Source of the DNA: Oceanibaculum indicum P24
GTDB lineage: Bacteria > Pseudomonadota > Alphaproteobacteria > Oceanibaculales > Oceanibaculaceae
Length of the DNA: 64,000 bases
Assembly (NCBI RefSeq): GCF_000299935.1
Contig: NZ_AMRL01000008.1
Span: forward strand, 1 to 64,000
Reading direction: 5' to 3'
A program made the translations under genes and the position numbers. Positions within the stretch are counted from its first letter, which is position 1. Each line of letters opens with the position of its first letter. The notes beneath the pieces were generated by a model. It ran no database searches. It saw only the letters and a program-made list of their open reading frames with translations, and was not told where the DNA came from. Of this stretch, positions 14,303-32,137 are shown piece by piece.

Positions 14303-14370
14303 GGGCACCTTGACTCGGGCTTGGCCGCCCGCCTACCGTCCGTTGCTTGATCAGGGGGCGGAAAACCGAC

Positions 14371-15564
14371 ATGGCCGACAAGGACAGACGCGCAGACTGG
14401 AAGCCGCAGACGCAGCTGGTGCGCGGCGGGCAGAGGCGCAGCCCGTTTTCCGAAACGTCAGAGGCGCTCTATCTCACTTCCGGCTTTGTCTATGACAGCG
14501 CCGAGGAAGCCGAGGCTGCCTTCAAGAATGAAGGTTCCCGCTTCGTCTATTCGCGCTATTCCAACCCCACCGTCGCCATGTTCGAGGAACGGTTGCGCCT
14601 GCTGGAAGGGGCGGAGACCTGCGCCGCCACGCCCAGCGGCATGGCGGCCGTCGCGGCGGCGATGCTGTGCTTCCTGAAGGCCGGTGACCGGGTGGTGTCG
14701 TCGCGCGTGCTGTTCGGCTCCTGCCACTGGATCGTCTCCACCCTGCTGCCGCGCTATGGCATCGAGACGGTGCTGGTCGATGGCGGCGACCTGGAGGCCT
14801 GGCGCGACGCGCTGAAGCCGGGCGCGCAGGCCGTATTCTTCGAGACGCCATCGAACCCGATCCTGGGGCTGGTCGATATCGCCGCCGTGGCGGAGCTGGC
14901 GCATGCGGCGGGGGCCCGCGTCATCATCGACAATGTGTTCGCCACACCGATGCTGCAGCGCCCCCTGGAGCTGGGTGCTGACATCGTTGTCTATTCCGCC
15001 ACCAAGCATATCGATGGCCAGGGCCGCTGCATGGGGGGCGCCATCCTGGGCCCGGCGGACTGGCACAAGGAATTCCTCTGGCCCTACTACAAGCATACCG
15101 GCCCGTCGATGAGCCCGTTCAACGCCTGGGTGCTGCTGAAGGGGCTGGAGACGCTGGATCTGCGCGTCGAGCGGCATGGTCGCAACGCGCTGGCCGTGGC
15201 GACCGCGCTGGAGGCGCATCCCAAGGTCGGTAAGGTGCTGTATCCGGGCCTGCCCAGCCATCCGCAGTACGAGCTGGCGCAGCGCCAGATGAAGGGCGGC
15301 AGCAACCTGATCGCCTTTACCGTGCCCGGCGGCAAGGAGGGCGCGTTCCGGCTGCTGAACGGCCTCAGCCTCATCGATATCTCGAACAATCTGGGCGATG
15401 CCAAGAGCCTGATCACCCACCCCGCCACCACCACCCACCGCGCCGTGCCGGCAGAACAACGCGCCGCCTTCGGCATCGAGGACGGGCTGGTGCGCATCTC
15501 GGTCGGGCTGGAGGATGCGGAGGATATCATCGCCGACCTGAATGCGGCACTGGAGGCAGTATGA
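14371..15564 (+). CDS. metZ: O-succinylhomoserine sulfhydrylase
   Basis: A 397-residue Cys/Met-metabolism PLP enzyme. The PLP lysine is K212 in YSATKHIDGQGR, the form typical of MetZ. LVRGGQRRSPFSETSEALYLTSGFVY at the N-terminus is also a MetZ hallmark. The reaction is O-succinylhomoserine plus sulfide to homocysteine plus succinate, the direct sulfhydrylation route to methionine. The ATG at 14371 starts the conserved sequence; a TTG at 14347 is in frame. Its stop overlaps the start of the OsmC gene, so the two are coupled. Confidence 0.92.
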   Translation: MADKDRRADWKPQTQLVRGGQRRSPFSETSEALYLTSGFVYDSAEEAEAAFKNEGSRFVYSRYSNPTVAMFEERLRLLEGAETCAATPSGMAAVAAAMLCFLKAGDRVVSSRVLFGSCHWIVSTLLPRYGIETVLVDGGDLEAWRDALKPGAQAVFFETPSNPILGLVDIAAVAELAHAAGARVIIDNVFATPMLQRPLELGADIVVYSATKHIDGQGRCMGGAILGPADWHKEFLWPYYKHTGPSMSPFNAWVLLKGLETLDLRVERHGRNALAVATALEAHPKVGKVLYPGLPSHPQYELAQRQMKGGSNLIAFTVPGGKEGAFRLLNGLSLIDISNNLGDAKSLITHPATTTHRAVPAEQRAAFGIEDGLVRISVGLEDAEDIIADLNAALEAV

Positions 15565-15986
15565 GCATGAAGACGCGGGTGAAATGGATCGACGGCATGG
15601 CCTTCATGGGCGAGAGCGGCACCGGCCACGCCGTGGTCATGGATGGCGCGCCGGAGAATGGCGGCCGCAATCTGGGGCCGCGCCCGATGGAGATGCTGCT
15701 GCTGGGGCTGGGCGGCTGCACCGCCTTCGACGTGGTGATGATCCTGCAGAAGGGCCGCCAGCCGATTGAGGATTGCCAGGTCGAGATCGAGGCGGAACGC
15801 GCCGAGGACCATCCCAAGGTCTTCACCAAGGTGCATATGCGCTACCTCGTGAAGGGGCGCGGCCTGTCGGCGGATGCCGTCCATCGCGCGGTGGAACTTT
15901 CGGTCGATAAATACTGCTCGGCCACCCATGTGATAAACAAGACGGCTGCCATGACCCATGAGGTCGTGATTGAGGAGCTGGGCTGA
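15561..15986 (+). CDS. OsmC family protein
   Basis: A 141-residue OsmC/YhfA-type protein. The two redox cysteines of the family are present: C53 in LGLGGCTAFD and C119 in VDKYCSATHV. OsmC proteins are thiol peroxidases acting on organic hydroperoxides, although the YhfA branch is poorly characterised. Its ATG overlaps the metZ stop and its own TGA overlaps the start of the ATP-grasp gene, a tight three-gene operon. The methionine-gene context suggests a thiol or sulfur-related role. Confidence 0.87.
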   Translation: MSMKTRVKWIDGMAFMGESGTGHAVVMDGAPENGGRNLGPRPMEMLLLGLGGCTAFDVVMILQKGRQPIEDCQVEIEAERAEDHPKVFTKVHMRYLVKGRGLSADAVHRAVELSVDKYCSATHVINKTAAMTHEVVIEELG

Positions 15987-16966
15987 TGTTTCCAGACATG
16001 GACGATGCGCGGATCTACGTGCTCTACGAGAACGCCGACTGGCTGGCACCGCTGGCGGAGCTGTTCGACGCGCGCGGCCTGCCCTGGCAGGGCTGGGACC
16101 TGTCGGACGGGGCCTTCGACATCTCGTCGGAACCGCCGCACGGCCTATTCTTCAGCCGCATGAGCGCCTCCGCGCATACCCGCGACCATCGCTACTCCAC
16201 CGACCTGACCGCCGGTGTGCTGACCTGGCTGGAACGCCACGGACGGCGTGTGGTGAACGGTGTGCGCGCGCTCGACCTCGAACTCTCCAAGGCACGCCAG
16301 TATGCGGCGCTGGAGAAGGCTGGCATCGAGACGCCGCGCACGGTCATGGTGCTGGGCCGCGACCGTCTGTTCGAGGCCGCAAAGGCGCATTTCGGCGACG
16401 GGCCGGTGATCCTGAAGCCGAATCGCGGCGGCAAGGGACTTGGCGTGCAGCTGTTCAACAGCATGGATGGGCTGGCAGCCTATGTCGAAAGCCCGCTCTA
16501 TGAGGAGCCGGTGGACGGCATCCACCTGCTGCAGGAATACATCAAGGCGCCGGAGCCCTTCATCACCCGCTGCGAGTTCGTCGGCGGGCGCTTCCTCTAT
16601 GCCGTGCGCGTCGATACCAGCGGCGGGTTCGAGCTGTGCCCGGCGGATGCCTGCGCGGTCGGCGACGCCTTCTGCCCGGTCGGCGAGGAAGCGGCGCGGC
16701 CGAAATTCGAGATCGTGCCGGAGATCGACCCGGTGCAGAAGGCCAGCTACGAGCGGATGCTTGCGGAAAACGGCGTGGAAGTGGCCGGTGTGGAGTTCAT
16801 CGTCGGCGCCGATGGCCGGGCGCGCACCTACGACATCAACACCAACACCAACTACAATACCGAGGCGGAGGCCCGCGCCGGCCTGTCGGGCCGTGGCACG
16901 CTGGCCGATTTTTTCAGCGCCGAACTGGCCCGGCTCTACCCCGGCACCGCCCACGCGGCTGAGTAG
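15986..16966 (+). CDS. ATP-grasp ligase (RimK-like)
   Basis: A 326-residue ATP-grasp enzyme. KPNRGGKGLGVQLF is the glycine-rich ATP-binding loop, LLQEYI is the purine-contacting strand, and VEFIVGADGRARTYDINTNTNYN carries the metal-binding D/N residues. The fold resembles RimK-type amino-acid ligases that join an amino acid to a carboxylate through an acyl phosphate. The N-terminal 100 residues are a pre-ATP-grasp domain. The substrate is unknown. Translation is coupled to the OsmC gene (TGATG). Confidence 0.82.
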   Translation: MFPDMDDARIYVLYENADWLAPLAELFDARGLPWQGWDLSDGAFDISSEPPHGLFFSRMSASAHTRDHRYSTDLTAGVLTWLERHGRRVVNGVRALDLELSKARQYAALEKAGIETPRTVMVLGRDRLFEAAKAHFGDGPVILKPNRGGKGLGVQLFNSMDGLAAYVESPLYEEPVDGIHLLQEYIKAPEPFITRCEFVGGRFLYAVRVDTSGGFELCPADACAVGDAFCPVGEEAARPKFEIVPEIDPVQKASYERMLAENGVEVAGVEFIVGADGRARTYDINTNTNYNTEAEARAGLSGRGTLADFFSAELARLYPGTAHAAE

Positions 16967-25763: not shown

Positions 25764-25864
25764 CGTCATTCCCGGGCTTGTCCCGGGAATCCAGGGTTCA
25801 GCCTACTCGGGCGAGCATCCAGCAAGCGGAAGCCTGGCCCCCCGCAATAAATGCGGGGGTGACG
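25764..25864. repeat. Palindromic intergenic repeat, copy 6
   Basis: CGTCATTCCCGGGCTTGTCC and CGGGAATCCAGG form the left hairpin. CCCCCGCAATAAATGCGGGG with TGACGG forms the right. The two arms are swapped relative to copy 3 (the ATTCC arm is first), showing that units can be arranged in either order. Confidence 0.85.
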
Positions 25865-25908: not shown

Positions 25909-25937
25909 TTGACTCCTCATCCTCCCGCCCCTATCTT
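25909..25937 (+). promoter_or_regulatory. Sigma-70-type promoter of the first SAM-II riboswitch
   Basis: TTGACT (25909-25914) and TATCTT (25932-25937) are spaced by 17 bases. The predicted start near 25943 coincides with the 5' end of the aptamer, so the riboswitch opens the transcript. Confidence 0.7.
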
Positions 25938-25943
25938 CCCGGT

Positions 25944-25998
25944 CAGCGCCGATTTGAGCATCAGCTTGCGGGCGCTTTACAAATGCAGCTAAAGCGTC
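25944..25998 (+). ncRNA. SAM-II riboswitch aptamer upstream of an OsmC gene
   Basis: The SAM-II (metA-type) pattern is complete. Stem P1 pairs AGCGCC (25945-25950) with GGCGCT (25971-25976). GATTTGA follows P1, CTTGCG precedes the 3' arm, and the 3' pseudoknot element GCTAAAG follows an A-rich CAAATGCA. It is followed at once by an intrinsic terminator and then the OsmC gene. The terminator and the 3' element can be mutually exclusive through AGCTAAAGC (25987-25995) pairing with GCTTTGGCT (26015-26023). This implies SAM-dependent premature termination. Confidence 0.9.
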
Positions 25999-26005
25999 GG
26001 CCCCG

Positions 26006-26039
26006 ATCCGCCCAGCTTTGGCTGCGGCGGATTTTTTTT
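26006..26039 (+). terminator. Riboswitch-linked intrinsic terminator 1
   Basis: ATCCGCCCAGC pairs with GCTGCGGCGGAT (one unpaired C) around the loop TTTG, followed by eight T. It lies between the SAM-II aptamer and the OsmC start, so the gene is expressed only when this hairpin is prevented. Confidence 0.85.
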
Positions 26040-26061
26040 GACGAGCATGCGGAGACGGATC

Positions 26062-26589
26062 ATGGACGCGACCACCCTGAAGGCCCTGCAGGCGCCGCTG
26101 AAGGCGCAGTACAAGGACCAGCCGGACGCCGCGAAGATCACCCTGAAGGCCGACGGCAGGCTGGGCGAGGAAGCCATCACCTGCTCCGTCGATACCGGGC
26201 GCGCGCTGGTCGAGGCCGGGCTGCATCCGGCGACCGGCGGCGACGGCCTGTCCGCCTGCTCCGGCGACATGCTGCTCCAGGCGCTGGTGGCCTGCGCCGG
26301 CGTCACGCTGAAGGCGGTCGCTACGGCGCTGGGCATCGAGATCCGCGAAGGCACGGTGAAGGCCGAGGGCGACCTGGACTTCCGCGGCACGCTGGCGGTG
26401 GACCGCGAGGCGCCGGTCGGCTTCACCGATATCCGCCTCTCCTTCGATATCGACACCGACGCGAACGAGGAGCAGCTGGCCAGCCTGTTCAAGCTGACCG
26501 AGCGCTATTGCGTGGTGTTCCAGACCCTGAACAACAAGCCGGTGCTGGCGGTCAGCCACACGGTGAACGGCAAGGCCAAGGCCGCCTAA
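26062..26589 (+). CDS. OsmC family protein under SAM-II control
   Basis: A 175-residue OsmC-type protein. C79 in LVACAGVTLKAVAT and a second Cys in TERYCVVFQTL correspond to the redox pair of OsmC/Ohr proteins. GGAGAC precedes the ATG at 26062. It is preceded by a promoter, SAM-II riboswitch and terminator, so its expression should fall when SAM is abundant, which links it to methionine or sulfur supply. It differs from the metZ-linked OsmC at 15561. Next on the strand is a second SAM-II riboswitch, about 60 bp away. Confidence 0.85.
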   Translation: MDATTLKALQAPLKAQYKDQPDAAKITLKADGRLGEEAITCSVDTGRALVEAGLHPATGGDGLSACSGDMLLQALVACAGVTLKAVATALGIEIREGTVKAEGDLDFRGTLAVDREAPVGFTDIRLSFDIDTDANEEQLASLFKLTERYCVVFQTLNNKPVLAVSHTVNGKAKAA

Positions 26590-26619: not shown

Positions 26620-26648
26620 TTGACGGCACAGAAACTGTAGATTATAAA
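26620..26648 (+). promoter_or_regulatory. Sigma-70-type promoter of the second SAM-II riboswitch
   Basis: TTGACG (26620-26625) and TATAAA (26643-26648) are spaced by 17 bases. Transcription would begin near 26655, at the first base of the aptamer. Confidence 0.75.
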
Positions 26649-26654
26649 GACGAC

Positions 26655-26710
26655 ATAGCGCCGATTTGAGGCTCAGCTTGCGGGGCGCTTTATAAATTCT
26701 GCTAAAGAGA
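26655..26710 (+). ncRNA. SAM-II riboswitch aptamer upstream of a sulfonate-type ABC transporter
   Basis: P1 is AGCGCC (26657-26662) with GGCGCT (26684-26689). GATTTGA, CTTGCG, TATAAATTCT and GCTAAAG (26701-26707) are all present in the SAM-II order. Downstream, AGAGCGGGC (26708-26716) can pair with GCCCGGCTCT (26723-26732), an antiterminator that would destroy the following terminator. The promoter, aptamer, terminator layout is the same as the copy upstream. Confidence 0.9.
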
Positions 26711-26717
26711 GCGGGCA

Positions 26718-26753
26718 AATCCGCCCGGCTCTGGAGCCGAGGCGGATTTTTTT
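26718..26753 (+). terminator. Riboswitch-linked intrinsic terminator 2
   Basis: ATCCGCCCGGCT pairs with AGCCGAGGCGGAT (one unpaired A) around CTGG, followed by seven T. It lies 83 bp before the start of the substrate-binding protein gene, so readthrough is needed for expression of the transporter operon. Confidence 0.85.
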
Positions 26754-26835
26754 CGTCCCGGAGCTGGACCAGACGGACCCCACTCTTCCGAGCCTCCTTA
26801 CCTGCGCCGCTAGCGCACACGCAAGGAGAGCAAGA

Positions 26836-27843
26836 ATGACCATCAAGATCACCCGCCGCACCTTCAAGCTCGGCAGCATCGCCGCCGCAGCCCTCGCCGT
26901 GACCGTTGGAGCAGGCGCCGCCCAGGCCGCGCCGGAGCGCATCGGCCTCGACTACGCCTATTACAATCCGGTCAGCCTGCTGCTGAAGGACAAGGGCTGG
27001 GTCGAGGAGGAGTTCAAGAAGGACGGCATCGACGTCCGCTGGGTGCTGAGCCTGGGCTCCAACAAGGCGCTGGAATTCCTGAATGGCGGCTCCATCCAGT
27101 TCGGCTCCACCGCCGGCGGCGCAGCGCTGGTCGGCAAGGCCAACGGCAACCCGATCAAGGCGATCTACATCTATTCGCGGCCGGAATGGACGGCGCTGGT
27201 CACCGGCAAGGACAGCGGCATCAAGTCTGTCGCCGACCTGAAGGGCAAGCGCGTCGCCGTGACCCGCGGTACCGACCCGCATCTGTTCCTGCTGCAGGCG
27301 CTGAACCAGGCCGGCCTGACCGAGAAGGACATCAAGCCGGTGCTGCTGCAGCACCCCGATGGCGGGCGCGCGCTGGTCAGCGGTCAGGTCGATGCCTGGG
27401 CCGGCCTCGACCCGCACATGGCCAAGCATGAGCTGCAGGAGGGTGCCCGGCTGTTCCACCGCGACCCGGCGCTGAACACCTATGGCGTGCTGAATGTCCG
27501 TGAGGATTTCGCCACGGAGAATCCGGAAATCGTCGAGCGTCTGCTGGCCATCTATGAGCGCGCCCGCAAATATTCGCTGGAGAATCCGGACGAGCTGCGC
27601 GGCTACCTCGTGAAGGCCGCCAAGGTCGAGGACGAGATCGCCAGGAAGCAGCTGGGCGAGCGCACCGACCTCACCAACCCGGTAATCGGCGAGGAGCACC
27701 GCAAGGCGCTGACAGCTGCCGGCACCGTGCTGCGCGAGATCGGCGTGCTGAAAGCCGATACCGATGTGCCGGCGCTGGTGGCCGACCTGATCGACGACCA
27801 GTACATCCAGCGCGTCAACCGGCAGCAGGCGGCGCAGCGATGA
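26836..27843 (+). CDS. ABC transporter substrate-binding protein, aliphatic sulfonate/nitrate (SsuA/NMT1) type
   Basis: A 335-residue periplasmic-binding protein. The N-terminus RRTFKLGSIAAAALA is a Tat-like signal with cleavage near AQA, residue 36. The mature part IGLDYAYYNPVSLLLKDKGWVEEEF and GGSIQFGSTAGGAAL match the SsuA family. AAGGAGAG precedes the ATG. Aliphatic sulfonates are the family substrate, but SAM-II control argues for a methionine-pathway sulfur source. It is the first gene of a three-gene operon. Confidence 0.9.
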   Translation: MTIKITRRTFKLGSIAAAALAVTVGAGAAQAAPERIGLDYAYYNPVSLLLKDKGWVEEEFKKDGIDVRWVLSLGSNKALEFLNGGSIQFGSTAGGAALVGKANGNPIKAIYIYSRPEWTALVTGKDSGIKSVADLKGKRVAVTRGTDPHLFLLQALNQAGLTEKDIKPVLLQHPDGGRALVSGQVDAWAGLDPHMAKHELQEGARLFHRDPALNTYGVLNVREDFATENPEIVERLLAIYERARKYSLENPDELRGYLVKAAKVEDEIARKQLGERTDLTNPVIGEEHRKALTAAGTVLREIGVLKADTDVPALVADLIDDQYIQRVNRQQAAQR

Positions 27844-28715
27844 CCGCCGAGGTCTATGACCGCGACACCGCGAAGGCGGCGGCTCCCTCGGGGGCCGCTG
27901 CTTCTCCGCGCAAGCGCAACCCGCTGGCGGCACTGGCCGGCACCAAGGGGCTGATCGTTCCCCTGTTGCTGCTAGCCGGCTGGGCGGCGCTGTCCTGGAC
28001 CGGCGTGTTCGCGCCCAATCTGGTGCCAAGCCCGGAAGCGGTGCTGGAAGAAATCTCCGCCCTGTGGGCCAGCGGCGAGCTGACCAGCCATATCGGCGTG
28101 ACGCTGACCCGCGTGCTGTTCGGCTTCCTGGCCGGCACGGCGGCGGCCACGCTGCTGGGGGCCGTCACCGGTTATTCCCGCACCGCGCGGGAGCTGCTGG
28201 ACCCCACCCTGCAGGCGCTGAAGGCGGTGCCCTCGCTGGCCTGGGTGCCGCTGTTCATCCTGTGGTTCGGCATCTTCGAGGCCTCCAAGGTGACGCTGAT
28301 CGCGGTCGGCGTGTTCTTCCCGATCTATCTGAACCTGGTCGAGGGCATTCAGGGCGTTGACCGCAAGCTGGTGGAGGTGGCGAAGCTGAACCGCTTCAGC
28401 CGGCTGGATCTGGTGCGCCGGGTACTGCTGCCGGCCACCCTGCCCTCCTATGTGGTCGGCCTGCGCGCCGGTCTGGCGCTGGGCTGGATGTTCGTCATCG
28501 CGGCCGAGCTGATGGGGGCGAGCGAAGGCCTCGGCTATCTGATGGTCGATGGGCAGATGACCGGCCGCCCGGCGGTGATCGTCGCCAGCCTCATCCTGTT
28601 CGCCATCGCCGGCAAGCTGACCGACGCCGTGCTGGCCGGGGCCACCCGCCCGTTCCTCGCCTGGCAGGACGGTTTCGGCGACATGAAGGGAGCGACCCAT
28701 GCTCGCAATCGATAG
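27840..28715 (+). CDS. ABC transporter permease, sulfonate (SsuC) type
   Basis: A 291-residue permease with a cytoplasmic N-terminal extension of about 35 residues, then about six transmembrane helices. The EAA-like loop FNRFSRLDLVRRVLLPATLPSYVVGLRAGLALGWMFVIAAE is characteristic of SsuC/TauC. Its start overlaps the preceding stop by four bases, and its end overlaps the ATPase start. Confidence 0.9.
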   Translation: MTAEVYDRDTAKAAAPSGAAASPRKRNPLAALAGTKGLIVPLLLLAGWAALSWTGVFAPNLVPSPEAVLEEISALWASGELTSHIGVTLTRVLFGFLAGTAAATLLGAVTGYSRTARELLDPTLQALKAVPSLAWVPLFILWFGIFEASKVTLIAVGVFFPIYLNLVEGIQGVDRKLVEVAKLNRFSRLDLVRRVLLPATLPSYVVGLRAGLALGWMFVIAAELMGASEGLGYLMVDGQMTGRPAVIVASLILFAIAGKLTDAVLAGATRPFLAWQDGFGDMKGATHARNR

Positions 28716-29424
28716 TCTCGCCAAGCATTTCCCGAACGGCGTCATCGCGCTGAACGATGTCGATCTGGCCATTGACCAGTCGGAGATCGTCAGCCTCGTC
28801 GGCACCTCGGGCTGCGGCAAGTCCACCCTGCTGCGCATCCTGTCGGGGCTGGAAAGCGCCAGCCACGGCCGCGTCGCCATCGATGGCGATCCGGTCAGCG
28901 GCCCGCATCCGGAAATCGGCATGGTGTTCCAGGAAGCACGGCTGATGCCCTGGCTGAGTGTGGCCGACAATGTGCGCTTCGCCCTGAATGGTGAGGAGAA
29001 GGCGAGCCAGGACCGCAAGATCGCCGCCGTTCTGGCGAAGGTCGGGCTGGCCGATTTCGCCGGGGCTTATCCGCGTCAGCTGTCCGGCGGTATGGCGCAG
29101 CGCGTGGCGATTGCCCGCGCGCTGGTGCGCCGGCCCTCCATCCTACTGCTGGACGAGCCGTTCAGCGCGCTGGACAGCTTCACCCGGCTGCAACTGCAGG
29201 ATCATCTGCTGGAGCTGTGGCGCGAGGAGCGCTTCACCATGGTGTTCGTCACCCACGATGTCGAGGAAGCCGTCGCGCTCAGCGACCGCATCGTGGTGAT
29301 GCGCGGCAATCCCGGCCATATCCACGCTGAATTCGCGCTCGACCTGCCACGCCCGCGCCGGCGCACGGACAGCGATTTCCAGCACTGGAAGGAAAAGATC
29401 GTCCAGGCGCTGGATCTGTCGTAA
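28699..29424 (+). CDS. ABC transporter ATP-binding protein, sulfonate (SsuB) type
   Basis: A 241-residue ABC ATPase. Walker A is GTSGCGKST, the signature is LSGGMAQRVAIARAL, Walker B is LLLDEPFSALD, and the switch His is in VTHDVEEAVALSDR. LMPWLSVADNVRF is the typical SsuB Q-loop region. It completes the transporter set. A terminator follows. Confidence 0.93.
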   Translation: MLAIDSLAKHFPNGVIALNDVDLAIDQSEIVSLVGTSGCGKSTLLRILSGLESASHGRVAIDGDPVSGPHPEIGMVFQEARLMPWLSVADNVRFALNGEEKASQDRKIAAVLAKVGLADFAGAYPRQLSGGMAQRVAIARALVRRPSILLLDEPFSALDSFTRLQLQDHLLELWREERFTMVFVTHDVEEAVALSDRIVVMRGNPGHIHAEFALDLPRPRRRTDSDFQHWKEKIVQALDLS

Positions 29425-29593: not shown

Positions 29594-30964
29594 ATGCCCG
29601 CCCCGCAATCGGTCCTTGCGCTGATCGGCAACACGCCGATGGTCGAAGTCACCCGCCTGGATACCGGCCCCTGCCGGCTGTTCCTGAAGCTGGAGAGCCA
29701 GAACCCCGGCGGATCGATCAAGGACCGCATCGGCCTCTCCATGATCGAGGCGGCGGAGCGGGAGGGAAAGATCGCGCCCGGCAAGACCACGCTGATCGAG
29801 GCGACCGCCGGCAATACCGGCCTGGGGCTGGCACTGGTCGCGGCACAGAAGGGCTACAAGCTGCTGCTCATCATCCCGGACAAGATGAGCCAGGAGAAGA
29901 TCAACCATCTGCGCGCGCTGGGGGCGGAGATCGTCATGACCCGCTCCGATGTCGGGCGCGGTCATCCGGCCTATTACCAGGACATGGCGGAGCGGTTGGA
30001 GAAGGAGATTCCCGGCGGCTTCTGGGTGAACCAGTTCGCCAACCCGGCCAACCCGCTGGCGCACGAGACCGGCACCGGTCCGGAAATCTGGGCGCAGATG
30101 GATGGCGACATGGATGCGATGGTCTGCGGCGTCGGCTCCGGCGGCACGCTGTCCGGGCTGGGACGCTACTTCAAGAAGACCGCACCCCATGTCGAGATGG
30201 TGCTGGCCGACCCCAAGGGCTCGATCCTGGCCGAGGCCAGCCGGTCGGGCCATATCGGCGAGGCCGGCTCCTGGCTGGTCGAGGGCATCGGCGAGGATTT
30301 CATTCCGCCAAACTGCGACCTCGACCTGGTCGGCAGCGCCATCACCATCGATGACCGGGAGGCCTTCGCCACGGTGCGCGAGTTGCTGATGAAGGAAGGC
30401 ATCCTGGCCGGCACCTCTTCGGGCACGCTGATCGCCGCCGCCCTGCGCTACTGCCGCGCCCAGACCACGCCGAAGCGTGTCGTCACCTTCGTCTGCGACA
30501 GCGGCAACAAGTACCTCTCCAAGGCCTATAATGATTTCTGGCTGCAGGATCAGGGGCTGACCGCCCGCGAAAAGACCGGCGATCTGCGCGACCTGATCGC
30601 CCGGCAGGCGGTGCGCGGCGAGGTGATCAGCGTGGAGCCGGGCGACACGCTGCTGACCGCCTATGGCCGCATGCGGCTCTACGATATCTCGCAGCTGCCG
30701 GTGCTGGCCGATGGGCGCCTTGCCGGCATCCTCGACGAAAGCGACCTGCTGCTGGCGACGCACGACAACCCGGACGGCTTCCGGCGGCCGGTGTCGGGGG
30801 CCATGACCAGCCGGCTGGAAACCGTCGCGCCCACCGCGAAAATCGCCGACCTGATGCCGATCTTCCGCAAGGACCATGTCGCCATCGTGGTCGAAGGCGA
30901 GAAATTCCTCGGCCTCATCACCAAGGTCGATCTCATCAACCATCTCCGTCAATCGGTGGCCTGA
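29594..30964 (+). CDS. Cystathionine beta-synthase (PLP domain plus two CBS motifs)
   Basis: A 456-residue enzyme. The PLP lysine is K43 in PGGSIKDR, and GTGPEIWAQ and CGVGSGGTLSGLG are the PLP-phosphate and substrate loops of the OASS/CBS family. Residues about 340-456 hold two CBS motifs (EPGDTLLTAYGRMRLYDISQLPV and VAPTAKIADLMPIFRKDHVAIV), which distinguish it from plain cysteine synthase. It condenses homocysteine with serine. Followed after 3 bp by a gamma-family enzyme, giving a reverse transsulfuration unit. O-acetylserine-dependent activity cannot be excluded. Confidence 0.88.
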   Translation: MPAPQSVLALIGNTPMVEVTRLDTGPCRLFLKLESQNPGGSIKDRIGLSMIEAAEREGKIAPGKTTLIEATAGNTGLGLALVAAQKGYKLLLIIPDKMSQEKINHLRALGAEIVMTRSDVGRGHPAYYQDMAERLEKEIPGGFWVNQFANPANPLAHETGTGPEIWAQMDGDMDAMVCGVGSGGTLSGLGRYFKKTAPHVEMVLADPKGSILAEASRSGHIGEAGSWLVEGIGEDFIPPNCDLDLVGSAITIDDREAFATVRELLMKEGILAGTSSGTLIAAALRYCRAQTTPKRVVTFVCDSGNKYLSKAYNDFWLQDQGLTAREKTGDLRDLIARQAVRGEVISVEPGDTLLTAYGRMRLYDISQLPVLADGRLAGILDESDLLLATHDNPDGFRRPVSGAMTSRLETVAPTAKIADLMPIFRKDHVAIVVEGEKFLGLITKVDLINHLRQSVA

Positions 30965-30967
30965 ACG

Positions 30968-32137
30968 ATGACCCAGAACAAGACCAACCGCGCCGGCTTC
31001 GGCACGCGCGCCATCCATGCCGGCCAGGAGCCGGACCCGACAACCGGCGCCATCATGGTGCCGATCTACGCCACCTCGACCTATGTGCAGCAGAGCCCCG
31101 GCGTGCATAAGGGCTACGAATATTCGCGCAGCCAGAACCCGACGCGCATGGCGCTGGAAGCCTGCGTCGCCGATCTGGAAAATGGCGAGGCGGGATTCGC
31201 CTTCGCCTCCGGCCTTGCCGCCATGGGCACGGTGCTGGAGCTGCTGGACAGCGGCAGCCATGTCATCGCCATGGACGATCTCTATGGCGGCTCCTACCGG
31301 CTGTTCGAGAATGTGCGCAAGCGCTCGGCCGGGCTGGAATTCTCCTTCGTCGACCTGTCCGACCCGGCGGCGCTGGAAGCCGCAATCCGGCCGAACACCA
31401 AGATGGTCTGGGTCGAAAGCCCGACCAACCCGATGCTGCGGCTGGCGGATTTCCAGGCGATTGCCACCATGGCGAAGAAGCACGGCCTCATCGCGGTGGC
31501 CGACAACACCTTCGCCTCGCCCTATGTGCAGAAACCGCTGGATCACGGTTTCGACATCGTCATCCATTCGATGACCAAGTATCTGAATGGCCATTCCGAC
31601 ATGGTGGGCGGCGTCGCCGTAGTACGCGAGGGCAGCCCGCACCGCCAGCCTCTGGCCTATCTGCAGAACGCCATCGGCTCGGTTGCCGGACCATTCGACA
31701 GCTTCCTGGCACTGCGCGGGCTGAAGACGCTGCATCTGCGCATGGAGCGGCACTGCGCCAACGCGCTGGCCATCGCGCAATGGCTGGAGGCCCACCCGAA
31801 GATCGAGAAGGTGGTCTATCCCGGTCTTGCCAGCCATCCGCAGCACGAGTTGGCGAAGCGGCAGATGATCGGCGGCTTTGGCGGCATCGTCACCGCCGTC
31901 ATCAAGGGCGGGCTCGACGAGAGCCGGCGCTTCCTGGAGCGCACCAAGCTGTTCGCCCTGGCCGAGAGCCTGGGCGGTGTTGAAAGCCTGATCGAGCATC
32001 CGGCGATCATGACGCATGCCTCGATCCCGCCGGACATCCGCGCTGAACTCGGCATTTCCGACGGGCTGGTGCGGCTCTCCGTCGGCGTCGAGGATCTGAC
32101 CGACCTGCTCGCCGATCTGGAAAACGCGCTGGCTTAG
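30968..32137 (+). CDS. Cystathionine gamma-lyase/synthase family PLP enzyme
   Basis: A 389-residue Cys/Met-metabolism PLP enzyme. K204 in HSMTKYLNGHSDMVGG is the Schiff-base lysine. GFGTRAIHAGQEPDPTTGAIMVPIYATSTYVQ is the standard N-terminus. Beside a cystathionine beta-synthase, the expected reaction is cystathionine to cysteine, alpha-ketobutyrate and ammonia (gamma-lyase). Gamma-synthase is the main alternative because the two are hard to separate by sequence. Confidence 0.85.
   Translation: MTQNKTNRAGFGTRAIHAGQEPDPTTGAIMVPIYATSTYVQQSPGVHKGYEYSRSQNPTRMALEACVADLENGEAGFAFASGLAAMGTVLELLDSGSHVIAMDDLYGGSYRLFENVRKRSAGLEFSFVDLSDPAALEAAIRPNTKMVWVESPTNPMLRLADFQAIATMAKKHGLIAVADNTFASPYVQKPLDHGFDIVIHSMTKYLNGHSDMVGGVAVVREGSPHRQPLAYLQNAIGSVAGPFDSFLALRGLKTLHLRMERHCANALAIAQWLEAHPKIEKVVYPGLASHPQHELAKRQMIGGFGGIVTAVIKGGLDESRRFLERTKLFALAESLGGVESLIEHPAIMTHASIPPDIRAELGISDGLVRLSVGVEDLTDLLADLENALA

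Follow-up and report, generated by a model that had tools for sequence, protein, structure and literature searches.

Two adjoining SAM-II riboswitches, predicted to act by transcription termination, precede osmC and SsuABC-type genes in Oceanibaculum indicum P24

Two adjoining transcription units in the window (the whole 64,000-nucleotide stretch of DNA analysed) are, with a probability of about 0.87, each opened by a SAM-II riboswitch predicted from its sequence to terminate transcription at high SAM; very probably, the adjacent pair shuts off a sulfur-uptake and OsmC gene set under these conditions. SAM-II is a known class, and it is the platform and the regulon that vary from known examples, the less expected parts being the pairing of riboswitches, the SsuABC-OsmC regulon and an antiterminator drawn from the ligand-binding strand. 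The sequence-only reading had reported one riboswitch, in the osmC leader, but had missed the adjacent second SAM-II at 26648-26726.

Two leaders and their genes

Between 25909 and 26062, a promoter, SAM-II aptamer 1, an intrinsic terminator and the osmC start codon follow one another, which confirms in the sequence the order proposed earlier. The features of both units are as follows.

25909..25937, forward strand: sigma-70-like promoter of riboswitch 1 (-35 TTGACT at 25909-25914, 17-nt spacer, -10 TATCTT at 25932-25937)
25945..26005, forward strand: SAM-II aptamer 1, GCGCC-type (RF00521 and R2, a subgroup model built from the aptamer 1 type and close relatives)
25945-25950 with 25971-25976, forward strand: P1 of aptamer 1 (sequence)
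25951-25956, forward strand: L1 of aptamer 1, GATTTG (sequence)
25964-25969 and 25988-25994, forward strand: P2b of aptamer 1, 5' strand GCTTGC and 3' strand GCTAAAG (sequence)
25984..25995, forward strand: putative antiterminator 5' strand TGCAGCTAAAGC, overlapping the SAM-contacting P2b strand (contact assigned by analogy)
26006-26032 plus U-run to 26039, forward strand: intrinsic terminator of riboswitch 1 (7-bp lower stem, 4-bp upper stem, UUUG loop)
26015..26026, forward strand: putative antiterminator 3' strand GCTTTGGCTGCG, within the terminator loop and upper stem
26062..26589, forward strand: osmC-like gene, 175 aa (Pfam PF02566, 4.5e-18; start ATG 26062)
26620..26648, forward strand: promoter of riboswitch 2 (TTGACG, 17 nt, TATAAA; partly kept in the congeners G001 and G002)
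26648..26726, forward strand: SAM-II aptamer 2 (RF00521 40.3 bits, above gathering; R2 67.0 bits)
26718..26754, forward strand: intrinsic terminator of riboswitch 2 (sequence and folding)
26836..27843, forward strand: SsuA-family substrate-binding protein (TIGR01728, 250.6 bits, over the cut-off)
27840..28715, forward strand: ABC transporter permease, SsuC-like (profile and domain matches)
28699..29424, forward strand: ABC transporter ATPase, SsuB-like (profile and domain matches)
29594..30964, forward strand: PLP enzyme with two CBS domains, cystathionine-beta-synthase-like (PALP and CBS domains; TIGR01137 422.8 bits, below the cut-off of 510.25)
30968..32137, forward strand: Cys/Met-metabolism PLP enzyme, cystathionine gamma-synthase/lyase-like (PF01053 507 bits; NF005871 509.2 bits, just below the cut-off of 513)

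The transcription start predicted from the first promoter, ~25945, is the first base of P1, and TTGAC is found at an equal upstream distance in G001 and G002 and in many further subgroup sites. The core motifs by which SAM-II membership is judged (GAUUUG, UUGC and GCUAAA) and the P1 stem are present in aptamer 1, and the outer P1 pair is C-G in some aligned sequences and A-U in others; P2a has 1 possible pair by the rule used. The RF00521 match to aptamer 1 spans 25936-26012 and scores 35.8 bits (E 3.7e-6 locally, 3.0e-6 genome-wide), 0.2 under the gathering score of 36.0; a scan at the gathering threshold omits the aptamer, and the local scan shows it. The covariance-model check proposed in the sequence-only reading thus falls just short of gathering, but this is outweighed by the E-value and by conservation in the congeners, and the SAM-II identity stands. 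R2, which contains the aptamer 1 sequence itself, gives 81.4 bits (E 1.8e-18).

Riboswitch 2 begins ~60 nt past the osmC stop codon, with its own promoter and its own terminator, and retains a P2a of 4 pairs (GCTC/GAGC). A tandem riboswitch on one leader was rejected, as each aptamer has its own promoter and its own gene. Both riboswitches, their terminators and the gene order are kept in G001 and G002, which belong to the same genus. The osmC ATG at 26062 is conserved among orthologs, as are cysteines including C78 and C150 in the ortholog alignment. No match to TIGR03565 (SsuD) was found in the genome; SsuD was therefore rejected as a partner of the SsuABC-type transporter. A match to the sRNA RcsR1 at riboswitch 2 was likewise rejected (27.3 bits against a cut-off of 60) and probably reflects just a shared terminator-like sequence. 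The interval from the queG-like gene to the osmC promoter holds an inverted-repeat-like sequence, CCCGGGCTTGTCCCGGG, at 25765-25860, which is probably a dispersed repeat.

The genome scan revealed a third SAM-II upstream of metN, metI and metQ on a different contig, and the RF00521 and R2 genome scans gave none beyond these three at E 0.01. Downstream of the metNIQ element (L008 2264-2460; G000:C1:194264 onward) lies a short Cys-rich reading frame, MCALFLLPDFPASGATRRMCRCRCRT, with similar frames in G001 and G002; it is possibly a cysteine-codon attenuator joined to the SAM switch. In a further congener, G003, one SAM-II is followed by the reading frame MVRYLCCRYT. Genes of the metZ-like kind are usual SAM-II targets; upstream of the one in the window (14368-15564), no SAM-II match was found. 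It stands in a row with a second OsmC-family gene and an ATP-grasp-like gene (14368-16966, no SAM-II found), and similar metZ-like and ATP-grasp-like genes of G003 do carry SAM-II.

Proposed competition for the SAM-contacting strand

A key question is how the binding of SAM would be converted into termination. Twelve contiguous pairs, two of them G-U, can form between the two putative antiterminator strands, a duplex that 400 dinucleotide shuffles of the sequence never matched and 20,000 mononucleotide shuffles matched twice. The complementarity between the 3' pseudoknot strand and the terminator described in the sequence-only reading is thus real, but it is longer than claimed and contains two G-U pairs rather than one. 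The 12 pairs are kept in G001 and G002, the former turning one G-U into A-U, and in these genomes the aptamer, terminator and pairing persist despite changed flanking sequence.

The pairing was also assessed across 32 subgroup sites, each having a terminator whose 3' arm offers a candidate partner. In the 6-nt antiterminator strands, 148 of 192 cells were Watson-Crick against a permuted mean of 133, and after removal of the window's genus the values were 121 and 111.7; none of 20,000 permutations reached the observed count in either case, in a procedure that treats the sites as unrelated and ignores the kinship of the sequences. A-U is exchanged for G-C at the variable position, and in G198 G-C is exchanged for C-G at a different one; at many single subgroup sites the complementarity is not above that of shuffles. 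The previously proposed antiterminator, a duplex of the 3' pseudoknot strand with the loop of the terminator, is conserved and covaries. By sequence, covariation and folding, it is predicted to be exclusive of both the ligand-bound aptamer and the terminator.

Minimum-energy folds of growing osmC transcripts, which are distinct from a kinetic simulation, contain the antiterminator at 3' ends from ~26018 to 26032, and the terminator replaces it from ~26034, inside the U-run. In the full-length ligand-free fold, the terminator is slightly preferred (-38.2 versus about -37.5 kcal/mol); the switching must therefore be kinetic. With the aptamer masked to mimic the bound state, only the terminator forms. 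Riboswitch 2 folds alike with a weaker competitor, a hairpin of GGGC with GCCC and flanking strands that is preferred until the terminator 3' arm is complete.

We propose the following mechanism. In the folded aptamer, TGCAGCUAAAGC would be the strand in contact with SAM. At low SAM it would instead pair with the loop and upper 3' arm of the terminator while these are being transcribed, so that the terminator could not close and osmC would be made. Bound SAM would hold TGCAGCUAAAGC in the pseudoknot, the terminator would form, and a ~95-nt leader would be released. The same logic would apply at riboswitch 2 to the ssuABC, CBS-like and CGS/CGL-like genes. SAM-induced termination at the osmC leader is a well-supported prediction, and the earlier suggestion that SAM is an OFF signal acting through termination finds support in the modelled folds. 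The SAM affinity of the osmC aptamer could be low, since it has 1 P2a pair and disruption of P2 pairs in the Agrobacterium tumefaciens metA aptamer abolished the SAM response (PMC1273637).

The dinucleotide CG directly after GCUAAAG is nearly fixed (44 of 51 subgroup sites), for which P2a gives no explanation; a possible role is pairing with the 3' strand of P1 in a hairpin of the ligand-free RNA.

A real SAM-II aptamer could also exert mainly translational control or precede a constitutive terminator, as in Sinorhizobium meliloti metA, where the terminator downstream of a translational SAM-II is not predicted to be SAM-responsive (PMC9373788). Such an arrangement would suit the 8 of 51 subgroup sites that lack a terminator by the rule used, and the Microvirga leaders, in which a hairpin without a U-run lies upstream of the start codon. 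However, the terminator in the osmC leader overlaps the conserved and covarying partner of the antiterminator, and the osmC start lies 22 nt past the U-run, outside the aptamer; we therefore regard this alternative as unlikely.

A GCGCC-type subgroup in alphaproteobacteria

At E ≤0.01, R2 matched 166 of 385 sampled alphaproteobacterial genomes, the weaker matches including common-type SAM-II, and 51 strong sites were read individually. ATTTG, TTGC and GCTAAAG were present in all 51. The binding site of SAM-V reportedly superimposes on that of SAM-II (PMC6061858); by analogy with the described SAM-V contacts, these motifs would hold the SAM-contacting residues. An intrinsic terminator was found in 43 of the 51 sites. 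RF00521 gathering was passed by 21 of 40 scanned loci holding subgroup sites, meaning that the Rfam SAM-II threshold misses about half of the subgroup loci scanned.

The consistent sequence differences from the common type, the lack of a long P2a, the transporter genes downstream and some unusual targets could suggest a different ligand for the subgroup, such as SAH or some other sulfur metabolite. Against this, the core motifs with their SAM-contacting residues are unchanged from ordinary SAM-II, further subgroup sites precede Cys/Met PLP enzymes and metNIQ, and SAM-V binds SAM with a 2-bp P2a (PMC6061858), so we consider another ligand very improbable. Altered ligand specificity was rejected as a lead in view of the ordinary core motifs and the many sulfur amino-acid gene targets. 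Least probable of all is that riboswitch 1 is a decayed, non-functional copy of riboswitch 2, with osmC expressed constitutively or by read-through: the short P2a and the score just below the Rfam cut-off would fit, but riboswitch 1 has the higher R2 score of the two, and its structure and pairing are kept in the congeners while the flanks have changed.

First genes of the subgroup include SsuABC, Cys/Met PLP enzymes and metNIQ. OsmC is the fourth gene behind SsuABC in six genomes (G134, G180, G351, G278, G355 and G220), and in G161 and G031 an R2 match lies, by coordinates, ~2.8 kb upstream of osmC. A GCGCC-type aptamer is situated upstream of ssuA-C-B-osmC in loci of Microvirga and Alsobacter and in a Hyphomicrobiales MAG (L059); in one Microvirga locus, L046, no ssu gene was detected between aptamer and osmC. 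Across 119 OsmC loci, 50 had an SsuABC homolog nearby. The OsmC behind riboswitch 1 is part of an SsuABC-OsmC module that lies under this SAM-II subgroup in several families. The window's genus has the module in two parts, with osmC first and behind its own switch. In the 1.4-Mb genome G033, a SAM-II with no visible terminator directly precedes a distant OsmC gene (27% identity).

Further arrangements were observed. Tandem SAM-II, seen as pairs of matches ~50-170 nt apart on one strand, occur in G379, G108, G074:C541, G187:C108, G280:C50, G314:C69 and G037:C10; in G379 and G108 a Cys/Met PLP gene, together with a distant OsmC gene, lies downstream of the pair. A long insertion marks the GCGCC-type SAM-II at L049, L053, L059 and L103 (Alsobacter and the Hyphomicrobiales MAG); at L059 the inserted sequence can fold into a hairpin located between P1 and the 3' strand. 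G003 has at least seven SAM-II matches (L123, L124, L125, L126), four of them within 18 kb; no match to the riboswitch-1 OsmC and no copy of the paired-riboswitch arrangement were found there.

Relation to known systems and implications

The sequence-only reading had presented termination as a less usual SAM-II mechanism. This claim fails as stated, because terminators are usual for SAM-II: the link dates from 2005-2007 (PMC1273637, PMC2258182), and S. meliloti metZ SAM-II is predicted to terminate transcription (PMC9373788). The CGUGG-type (RF00521; A. tumefaciens metA, S. meliloti metZ) shares with riboswitch 1 the P1, L1 and P2b core motifs, a promoter just upstream of P1, a terminator and a predicted OFF response. 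The difference lies in the platform. A P2a of 5-6 pairs prevails in common-type sites (36 of 42), and about 90-95% of the time it is the 3' strand of P2a that supplies their best pairing with the terminator region. GCGCC-type sites mostly have 1-2 P2a pairs (33 of 51), and in 81-100% of them the best duplex draws on GCRGC, which extends into the SAM-contacting P2b strand (GCRGCU). A published comparison ties a short P2a to translational control (PMC6061858), whereas here it goes with terminators. The subgroup looks new, in that P2a mostly has 1-2 pairs and the SAM-contacting P2b strand would itself be the antiterminator.

SAM-V (RF01826), known from Pelagibacter including an osmC locus, resembles riboswitch 1 in its SAM class, short P2a and osmC target (PMC5069961, PMC6061858) but is translational; SAM-V membership was rejected, as RF01826 had no match in the window up to E 1 in the local scan. 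The 2014 SAM_alpha survey of Leyn et al. likewise places SAM-II over sulfur amino-acid genes in alphaproteobacteria, listing metY, metA, metX, metC, metW and hom in Rhizobiales and Rhodobacterales only, without osmC, an ssu-type transporter or metNIQ (PMC4239095); the present regulon differs in having osmC, an SsuABC-type transporter with CBS-like and CGS/CGL-like genes, and metNIQ. That OsmC is a less usual target, as had been suggested, agrees with its absence from this survey but has a precedent in Pelagibacter, where osmC is among the genes listed for SAM riboswitches and increases when sulfur is limiting (PMC5069961). In the open-access literature on SAM-II with sulfonate or OsmC, the Pelagibacter work alone was relevant.

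We judge the chances slightly better than even that these sites form a distinct alphaproteobacterial transcriptional SAM-II subgroup, with P2a nearly absent and SAM and terminator competing for the SAM-contacting strand, that governs the SsuABC-OsmC module among other sulfur genes. This is a testable design, in which ligand and terminator would compete for one RNA strand. When SAM is short, the cell would increase organosulfur uptake, interconversion and protection of the OsmC thiol-peroxidase type. The peroxidase-like OsmC is usually met with in studies of osmotic and oxidative stress. Its family, together with an SsuABC-type transporter, is tied to SAM status in several families, which suggests a sulfur role for this protein, and if the subgroup reading is true, OsmC here would be a sulfur-limitation protein.
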